From assembly GCF_001573155.1 (NCBI RefSeq), contig NZ_JRWG01000004.1, positions 124,001-188,000 on the forward strand: a stretch of 64,000 bases of DNA, written 5' to 3'. Of this stretch, positions 10,686 to 11,818 are shown one piece after another. Source of the stretch: Aequorivita aquimaris (GTDB lineage: Bacteria > Bacteroidota > Bacteroidia > Flavobacteriales > Flavobacteriaceae). The position numbers and the translations under genes are program-made. Under the pieces are notes generated by a model. The model searched no databases. It saw only the letters and a list, made by a program, of their open reading frames with translations, and was not told where the DNA came from. Positions within the stretch are counted from its first letter, which is position 1. Each line of letters starts with the position of its first letter.

Positions 10686-11108
10686 TTATTGAAAGTAGCT
10701 GTAAGCGAATTCTACACTTTCTATGACCATATTATTATCCACATCTGAAACAATCCATTTTACCGGGTAAGCGTTTGTAAATATCCAAGATTTTAGCGGT
10801 GTGCCATCGTTGTCCAATAAGTTAATAATTATGGTTTTGGTTTCTAGCAAATCATCTGGATTACCTCCCAAAATTTTATTGCACCAAATTATAATTTCAG
10901 AATATTTCGAAGCCATACCTCGTTTTAAAACCAAGTTTGAGAGTTTTGCCGAAATAGAAACACGATGTTTGAAGCTGTTATCGGAAATTCCGTCTGTGTT
11001 CATTTCCATCGAAATTCCAGATAACTCCTTAAAAACAATACTGTCGATTGCTGTTTCATCACTAAAACTAAGTTGAAAATAAAAAGCCATGGGAAGAAAC
11101 TCATTCAT
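10686..11108 (-). CDS. Phage/contractile-injection tail-tube-like protein (gp19 family), second of a pair
   Basis: 140 aa. The pattern resembles the T4 gp19/Hcp-like tube fold and the preceding gene: FYFQLSF near the start, F.ELSGISMEMN, RVSISAKLSNLVLKRGM, WCNKILGG, IIINLLDNDG.PL.SWIFTNAYPVKW and a C-terminal VIESVEFAY. The ATG directly follows the TAG of the upstream paralogue with no spacing, so the two are translationally coupled. No sheath, baseplate, spike, protease or AAA+ gene is nearby. In complete injection systems such paired tube proteins form the inner tube and its cap or adaptor. The function of this isolated pair is unknown. The two are diverged, so this is not a recent duplication. 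Confidence 0.75.
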   Translation of the reverse strand: MNEFLPMAFYFQLSFSDETAIDSIVFKELSGISMEMNTDGISDNSFKHRVSISAKLSNLVLKRGMASKYSEIIIWCNKILGGNPDDLLETKTIIINLLDNDGTPLKSWIFTNAYPVKWIVSDVDNNMVIESVEFAYSYFQ

Positions 11109-11564
11109 CTATCCGTTTTTAATAGTTAAACCTTCATGGCGGAGTTCTAAAGTTTCTACAGCAACTTCATTTGCATCCGATTTCATATCAGTTGCTGTTA
11201 CTTTTGTGGACCAAGCATTGTCTAAAGTCCAAGTCATTACAAGGCTTCCAGCTTCGTCCAAAAGTTGGATGATAACAGTTTCTTTTTTTATGGTATTCAT
11301 TTTTATGGCATCATACCATTTTCTGAAATTGATGTCATTTATAAAGAGGCCCTTCTTCAAGGTTACATTTCCTTTTTTAGTGATACCCGGCATATCTATC
11401 GTAGAAAATTTCACGCTATCATTGTGCCTATATTCTATTACTTGTGGTTCAATATCTAAGCCTGAAACTTCTTGAAAGGAAGCCTCATTATCCTGTGAAC
11501 CTAAATGTACTGTAAAGTATAATTTGGGTAAAGGCCAATTACTACCTTGCGCTTCTCCTGCCAT
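11109..11564 (-). CDS. Phage/contractile-injection tail-tube protein (gp19 family), first of a pair
   Basis: 151 aa and no signal peptide. It is a recognisable member of the conserved phage-tail region/gp19 family: PLPKLYFTVHLG, SFQEVSGLDIEPQ, KFSTIDMPGITKKGNVTLKKG, FRKWYDAI, VIIQLLDEAGSLVMTWTLDNAWSTKV, and VETLELRHEGL at the end. Such proteins form the inner tube of contractile tails, pyocins and extracellular contractile injection systems. The following gene is a diverged paralogue. Both are read towards murF and lie between murF and tRNA-Val(GAC). No other tail gene exists in the window. It may be a remnant, or may supply tubes to an apparatus encoded elsewhere. Confidence 0.85.
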   Translation of the reverse strand: MAGEAQGSNWPLPKLYFTVHLGSQDNEASFQEVSGLDIEPQVIEYRHNDSVKFSTIDMPGITKKGNVTLKKGLFINDINFRKWYDAIKMNTIKKETVIIQLLDEAGSLVMTWTLDNAWSTKVTATDMKSDANEVAVETLELRHEGLTIKNG

Positions 11565-11647
11565 TTTATATAGTATAAAAGTGATTATATAATATTAGTT
11601 ATAAAATCCTTGATTCCTATAAGTACTACTACGTATATTATAGAAAC

Positions 11648-11678
11648 AAAAAAATCCCGAAGAATATTCTCATCGGGA
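11648..11678 (-). terminator. Terminator downstream of tRNA-Val(GAC)
   Basis: On the minus strand TCCCGA pairs with TCGGGA (11673-11678 with 11655-11660) around a 12-base loop, followed by seven T. It separates the tRNA from the tail-tube genes. Confidence 0.75.
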
Positions 11679-11689
11679 CCTTTTTATGT

Positions 11690-11730
11690 TGGGTCATACT
11701 GTTCCGAAGCATCGGAAGAACAGTGACTTT
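11690..11730 (-). pseudogene. Degenerate copy of the 3' end of tRNA-Val
   Basis: The 12 bases TGGGTCATACTG (11690-11701) and the nine bases CAGTGACTT (11721-11729) repeat the acceptor and T-stem of the tRNA-Val gene 14 bp away. The T-loop is replaced by an 18-19-base stretch that forms its own hairpin. The anticodon and D arms are missing. It is either a decayed second tRNA gene or an insertion/recombination scar. Confidence 0.6.
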
Positions 11731-11743
11731 AAATATTATTTTG

Positions 11744-11818
11744 TGGGTCATACTGGATTCGAACCAGTGACTTCTACCCTGTCAAGGTAACACTCTGAAC
11801 CAACTGAGTTAATGACCC
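11744..11818 (-). tRNA. tRNA-Val (anticodon GAC)
   Basis: A complete cloverleaf can be folded: acceptor GGGTCAT/ATGACCC, D arm ACTC...GAGT, anticodon stem TTACC/GGTAG with loop TTGACAG, T arm CACTG-GTTCGAATC-CAGT. The anticodon GAC reads GUC and GUU. Discriminator A; CCA is not encoded. A weak promoter core, TATCTTCGC, lies at 11840-11832. Confidence 0.93.

Follow-up and report, generated by a model that had tools for sequence, protein, structure and literature searches.

The locus and its two tube genes

The window, a 64-kb stretch of contig C4 in a genome of 3.15 Mb (G000), carries two adjacent genes on the minus strand between murF and tRNA-Val(gac). The gene tube1 (11109..11564) encodes a 151-aa inner-tube protein of the gp19 family that resembles Alg1/Cis1, and tube2 (10686..11108) encodes a 140-aa tube initiator or inner-tube adaptor of the same family that resembles Alg5/Cis5. 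The TAG of tube1 abuts the ATG of tube2, and the tube2 stop lies 2 bp away from the murF stop. A first-pass annotation had placed two gp19-type tube genes at 10686-11564, and the coordinates and the matches to Pfam and to eCIS tubes agree with this. It had also described them as fused head-to-tail; the TAG is indeed directly followed by ATG, but the genes are separate neighbors and are not fused. Apart from the pair, the 64 kb yielded no sheath, spike, AAA, cap or further CIS gene, in line with that annotation. Neither gp25 nor Baseplate_J lies beside the pair; in G000 both are confined to a separate eCIS on contig C1.

Both proteins match Phage_T4_gp19 (PF06841; 136.9 bits for tube1 and 84.8 bits for tube2, cut-off 28.2), with a match that covers model positions 2-134 of 134, and both pass NCBIfam TIGR02241 (106.1 and 65.7 vs. 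a cut-off of 62.4). They remain below the cut-offs of the NCBIfam equivalogs, tube1 scoring 25 bits vs. 220 for NF053769 (CIS1) and tube2 54 bits vs. 260 for NF053770 (CIS5). The solved structure closest to tube1 is PDB 9r9h (E 8.5e-51), and 7adz, which is Alg1 of AlgoCIS, is matched at E 8.1e-40; the best matches of tube2 are 9rce_I and 7aeb_Y (Alg5) at E ~1e-20 (top E 1.4e-20). Because the Pfam scores are far over the cut-off and eCIS tubes are matched as well, the gp19 assignment is not a product of chance. The AlphaFold model of tube1 (mean pLDDT 74) has the AlgoCIS tube 7adz as its best Foldseek match (E 2.5e-12) and all of its top matches are CIS tubes, so that the earlier identification of tube proteins is borne out at the structural level; the fold of tube2 was judged by sequence only. 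If expressed, the pair would still yield gp19-fold proteins.

AlgoCIS, the subtype Ib eCIS of Algoriphagus machipongonensis, uses Alg1 as inner tube and Alg5 as tube initiator (PMC8894135), and these are the proteins (PDB 7adz/7aeb/7aef) that tube1 and tube2, respectively, match. AlgoCIS is encoded by one complete cluster that includes the baseplate (Alg7, 9, 11, 12), whereas the window holds two tube genes. The eCIS of PDB 9r9h/9rce, which contains the nearest solved relative of tube1, also has a matching sheath, a matching tube2 and a VgrG-like spike, but 9rce differs in having a 1323-aa Baseplate_J protein. It was considered as a solved minimal system and rejected, since the Baseplate_J chain in 9rce indicates a full eCIS. 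No publication on an Aequorivita CIS or on PDB 9r9h was found in the literature.

The murF site in the genus Aequorivita

The murF gene was located in 26 of the 28 genomes of the genus, and for 25 genomes the sequence from murF to yitT was examined, the comparison comprising one genome per species and including several fragmentary MAGs, with the absences in G014, G019, and G007 less certain. Tube genes occupy the site in 11 of these 25 genomes, G006 has tube2 only, and 13 sites are empty; conservation beside murF, raised by the first-pass annotation, thus extends to part of the genus only. The labels of the genes at these sites come from BLAST, with Pfam confirmation for G004, G001, the C1 eCIS of G000, the lone sheath described below and the short tape measure of G020. 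The largest cluster, in A. antarctica SW49 (G004), reads Pvc16-tube1-tube2-spike-TMP C-domain-AAA-DUF4280-tube2'. Five genes (tube1-tube2-spike-TMP C-domain-DUF4280) are present in G018 and G011, and a 39-codon stub of the lost AAA gene remains in the latter. The site of G001 carries Pvc16, a 622-aa sheath and tube1. The pair stands alone in G000, G005, G010, G014, and G019, and it is broken in G017 (a stop in tube2) and in G022 (a stop in tube1). Homologs of the AlgoCIS cap (Pvc16_N, Alg16A-like), sheath, spike, TMP, and AAA therefore occur at the site in relatives, but unlike AlgoCIS every version lacks a baseplate gene. Fuller tail clusters do exist at the site, as the annotation had considered, but they are partial and a full baseplate cluster was found there in no relative. 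The assembly splits yitT in G005 (L036) and murF in G010 (L037) by frame breaks, which are possibly sequencing errors.

These neighbors bear on whether the pair could be what is left of a tailed prophage. The Pfam family is named after gp19 of T4, and tail-tube matches exist in PHROG; these are weak (E 8e-11 and 2e-5) against the matches to eCIS tubes at E 1e-50. The neighbors at the site in relatives are of eCIS type (Pvc16 cap, CIS_TMP, eCIS spike). No capsid, portal, terminase or other phage head or packaging gene was recognized among the ORFs of the 25 sites, nor was an integrase, and no clear att pair was seen. A prophage remnant is thus extremely unlikely, and the integrated element considered by the first-pass annotation would have been an eCIS-type cluster: the two genes are an eCIS tube (Alg1-like) and an eCIS tube initiator (Alg5-like), not phage genes. 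A lone annotation of "phage tail tube" need imply neither a phage nor a function.

A second site in the genus raises the question of whether the parts of one machine have been dispersed. Between adk and obgE, eight relatives (L067-L074) carry a lone CIS sheath (~521 aa) that no tube gene adjoins, and six of these eight also have tubes at the murF site (Fisher p 0.02). One could therefore imagine a scattered contractile machine that does without a baseplate, its tubes, spike, and PAAR encoded at murF and its sheath at adk-obgE, where pairwise omega (0.08-0.17) indicates purifying selection. The association of lone sheath and tubes is not significant on the tree, however, and the lone sheath, which groups with L197, L199, and L202 in one of the baseplate-less lineages described below, differs in lineage from the sole sheath found at the murF site (G001), which groups with full-eCIS sheaths. 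The adk-obgE site of G000 holds its two standing neighbors only, with neither a sheath nor a remnant of one. The lone sheath was accordingly rejected as a partner of the window pair, and membership of the pair in such a machine appears improbable.

A complete eCIS on another contig

Contig C1 of G000 carries a complete eCIS at ~154904-180696 (L005, L006), with a Pvc16 cap, sheath, tube, tube initiator, CIS_tube/LysM hub, spike, gp25, Baseplate_J and tape measure. It also encodes a 921-aa protein that combines eCIS_core, OmpA and M35-peptidase regions and may be an eCIS cargo. The sheath/baseplate cluster that the first-pass annotation had proposed to look for, here sought with profiles and in selected stretches of the genome, is therefore present, and the pair is orphaned in its place but not in its genome, so that the word "orphan" holds for the window alone. 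The two tube genes of the C1 eCIS are 48% and ~27% identical to tube1, the higher value being that of the tube itself. Two smaller loci, both eCIS leftovers of a few genes, were noted in relatives: in G026 (L077) a lone sheath lies beside the gene that in G000 is the neighbor of the eCIS, and contig C22 of G004 (L205) holds a spike and a shortened tape measure.

The co-occurrence of a complete eCIS with the pair or its remnant in G000, G005, and G022 would suit a role as auxiliary tubes, perhaps conferring cargo specificity on the C1 eCIS, as is thought of T6SS orphan Hcp islands. Orphan hcp/vgrG/PAAR islands are common for T6SS (PMC13098142); there too tube, spike, and PAAR genes lie apart from the main machine, and the clusters of G018 and G011 are similar in content. 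The murF-site proteins, however, belong to eCIS families, no effector-immunity pair is seen, the genomes often have no complete system, and the decay is stepwise at one site. An eCIS baseplate protein is missing from eight of the 11 genomes that have tubes at the murF site, the three named above being those that have one; gp25 and Baseplate_J profiles found nothing in the remaining genomes save one sub-threshold gp25 match in G004. A tie between the pair and the presence of an eCIS is not supported, the trend being if anything opposite, and the two never moved together or changed in the same way in independent comparisons. The C1 eCIS has tubes of its own, tube1 is no more than 48% identical to its inner tube, no cargo gene adjoins the pair, and tube1 changes almost neutrally (see below). 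The suggestion that the pair supplies tubes to a system encoded elsewhere is consequently weak, and we regard it as quite unlikely.

tRNA-Val and the sequence upstream of tube1

The tRNA-Val(gac) gene lies at 11743..11818 on the minus strand (ARAGORN), and a partial copy of its T-arm and 3' end, with a hairpin, is found at ~11690..11730, both as first annotated. A hairpin followed by a T run (11655..11678, minus strand), read by eye and not listed by a terminator scan that allowed loops of <=8, is a probable terminator between the tRNA and tube1. Upstream of tube1 (11614..11635, minus strand) is the core of a conserved block, TACGTAGTAGTACTTATAGGAA..., which is probably the promoter or regulatory region of tube1. 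In every relative with tubes at murF, this block precedes whichever CIS gene comes first at the site, and a duplicate of it stands before the second tube2 of G004; elsewhere in 2.8 Mb of loci, only weak look-alikes were seen, in L091 and L197. The region upstream of the C1 eCIS contains TTATAGG/CCTATAA repeats, and a regulator common to that eCIS and the murF-site block is a possibility.

By comparison of alleles, the 3' half of the tRNA-Val in the window is of the type seen at occupied sites. This half reads CCAGTATGACCCA in 11 of the 11 occupied sites with a readable tRNA, G006 included, and CCAACATGGCCCA in nine of ten empty sites; the exception is G026 (CCAGTATAACCCA), where the site is empty yet the 3' half resembles the occupied type. 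G004, G014, and G011 have hybrid tRNAs that join the empty-site anticodon arm to the occupied-site 3' half, which is the trace expected from an insertion at the tRNA 3' half, and which exchange of haplotypes by homologous recombination would fit as well. Beyond the genus, Daejeonella, a member of another family, has an orphan tube pair that follows tRNA-Val(gac) in the same orientation, at a distance of 65 bp. The link between tRNA 3' half and occupancy, together with this second pair behind the same tRNA, fits an old integration. One compact cluster elsewhere lies behind tRNA-Arg.

By itself, the partial copy of the tRNA does not mark such an event. It is also present at the empty sites of G024, G013, G012, and G020, where it follows the local tRNA type, and is therefore not specific to insertion; the pair has such a copy on just one flank, the one facing the tRNA, and no flanking direct repeats were recognized. 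As a stand-alone integration scar it was rejected. In G001 a hairpin like the one in the partial copy interrupts the tRNA-Val.

Selection and exchange of alleles

Across most of the genus, tube1 and tube2 give pairwise omega values of 0.13-0.3; the spike gives 0.12-0.13 and murF ~0.05. In Aequorivita, purifying selection acts on the sheath and the spike, and the averages for tube1 and tube2, well below 1, imply that these two genes were selected until recently. Neither tube frame is interrupted in the window, and several relatives likewise keep both intact. On the branch leading to the window, polarized against G010, G004, and G014, tube1 shows 13 nonsynonymous and 2 synonymous changes, where neutrality predicts ~12:3 and an omega of 0.2 would give at least 13 out of 15 with P = 7.6e-4; this signal consists of 15 changes in one gene, a small number. 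On this branch tube1 appears to be evolving close to neutrality.

Near-neutral drift of this kind does not support the new use that the first-pass annotation had suggested. An example would be a cellular role for a tube that stands on its own, whether secreted or intracellular, and has nothing to do with injection. Solitary tube genes or pairs do occur in Ulvibacter, Daejeonella, Prolixibacteraceae, Pedobacter, and Pareuzebyella, as a new use might lead one to expect; against it are the long branches of the murF-site copies, some of which are broken, and the want of a conserved partner gene. We consider it very unlikely.

The murF-site copies of tube1 form one group, together with Ulvibacter (SH-aLRT 90); many of them sit on long terminal branches, and many full-eCIS tubes on short ones. 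Synonymous divergence is mosaic: between G000 and G005 it is 0.04 for tube1, 0.70 for tube2 and 0.14 for murF, and between G010 and G017 it is 0.04 for murF and 0.45 for tube1. This pattern indicates that alleles have been exchanged at the site. The tube2 genes of G014, G019, and G006 group with the murF-side tube2 copy of G004 (99/98), and recombination between two tube2 copies is a plausible cause of the deletion in these three genomes. The same route was rejected for the window, whose tube2 sits in another clade.

Origin of the pair

Given that the pair lacks partners from its own lineage in this genome and that tube1 is nearly unconstrained, the two genes are best read as a relic. They are probably retained from an eCIS-derived gene cluster and no longer under selection. 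In Aequorivita, such a cluster would be an old insertion into the gap that separates tRNA-Val(gac) from murF, and would either have come without a baseplate or have lost it first. It would then have been reduced through a stage with cap, two tubes, spike, short tape measure, ATPase, and PAAR to the two tube genes, and the window pair would now be heading toward pseudogene status. Homology, synteny, and a graded series of cluster sizes connect the sites, and we infer that the series runs by loss and not by gain, that the entry was at the tRNA and that function has been lost. Stepwise reduction at the tRNA-Val/murF site is the most economical account. It also comes closest to the "last trace of an integrated element" of the first-pass annotation, which fits best in view of the larger clusters at the same site and the link to the tRNA 3' half, but not in taking the partial tRNA copy as a scar. 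Auxiliary tubes, a scattered machine, and a new use are each possible for the window, and each is less supported than a relic.

Compact clusters without a baseplate in Bacteroidota

Outside the genus, most relatives of tube1 belong to a full eCIS, as at 50 of the loci scanned. Aureitalea sp. L0-47 and a Flavobacterium MAG, by contrast, have compact clusters that lack gp25, Baseplate_J, and a LysM hub and encode a protein of 267-269 aa together with sheath, tube1, tube2, spike, short TMP, AAA, and DUF4280; the cluster of Aureitalea sp. L0-47 includes Pvc16. Those of G226, G394, and G291 have a sheath, one or more tubes and a short TMP, with the spike present or not. Neither gp25 nor Baseplate_J was found anywhere in G226, a single-contig genome, or in G291, G264, G059, and G061. 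Clusters of this form, in which no baseplate gene is present and the tape measure consists of the C-terminal domain, were noted at L086, L087, L093, L197, L199, and L202. The p26x protein was examined as the cap adaptor Alg16B and set aside, since it has no PDB sequence match and agrees just in position and length.

Tape measures of the compact clusters are ~167-177 aa long, and their match to PF19268 is confined to the C-terminal part of the model, beginning at ~position 292. A tree of this domain, a quick one built on 168 columns, does not place the short forms in one clade (AU p 1.6e-88; at least six changes of state), and a single ancient family of short tape measures is rejected on these figures. 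The tape measure appears to have been trimmed to the same C-terminal domain in several independent lineages. Within Bacteroidota, baseplate-less eCIS clusters with this shortened tape measure have accordingly originated more than once. At L200, L201, L203, and L204, an intact short tape-measure gene (168-177 aa) stands by itself, the only CIS gene recognized in its vicinity.

It comes as a surprise that clusters often drop the baseplate while retaining tube, sheath, and spike. Loss of a baseplate gene abolishes particle production in PVC (PMC12210884), and Afp8 and Afp11 were present in 98.7% of loci in an eCIS survey (PMC8213781). Because surveys rest on baseplate genes (PMC8213781; PMC12210884), compact loci would be screened out by them. 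Such loci represent either an orderly route of decay or a machine that dispenses with the baseplate. We think it unlikely, though worth stating, that Bacteroidota carry a working class of baseplate-less contractile apparatus, made of cap, cap adaptor-like protein, sheath, tube, tube initiator, spike, PAAR, and AAA with a tape measure cut down to the C-terminal domain, an apparatus that would have been reached repeatedly from full eCIS, with genes sometimes dispersed and the window pair as an eroded outlier. The wider recurrence of baseplate-less eCIS clusters outweighs the result for the window, which is itself modest.

The reduced clusters of Aquiflexum and Cognataquiflexum (L125, L127, L131, L145) consist of sheath, tube, and tube or little more at tRNA-Thr. 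They resemble the murF site in that they remain behind a tRNA, and a congener, Cognataquiflexum aquatile (L126), keeps a full eCIS behind tRNA-Thr with the same neighbors as the reduced loci of the related species; they differ in the tRNA concerned, in having kept the sheath and in lineage. L126, set against these four loci, offers a ready model of eCIS decay.
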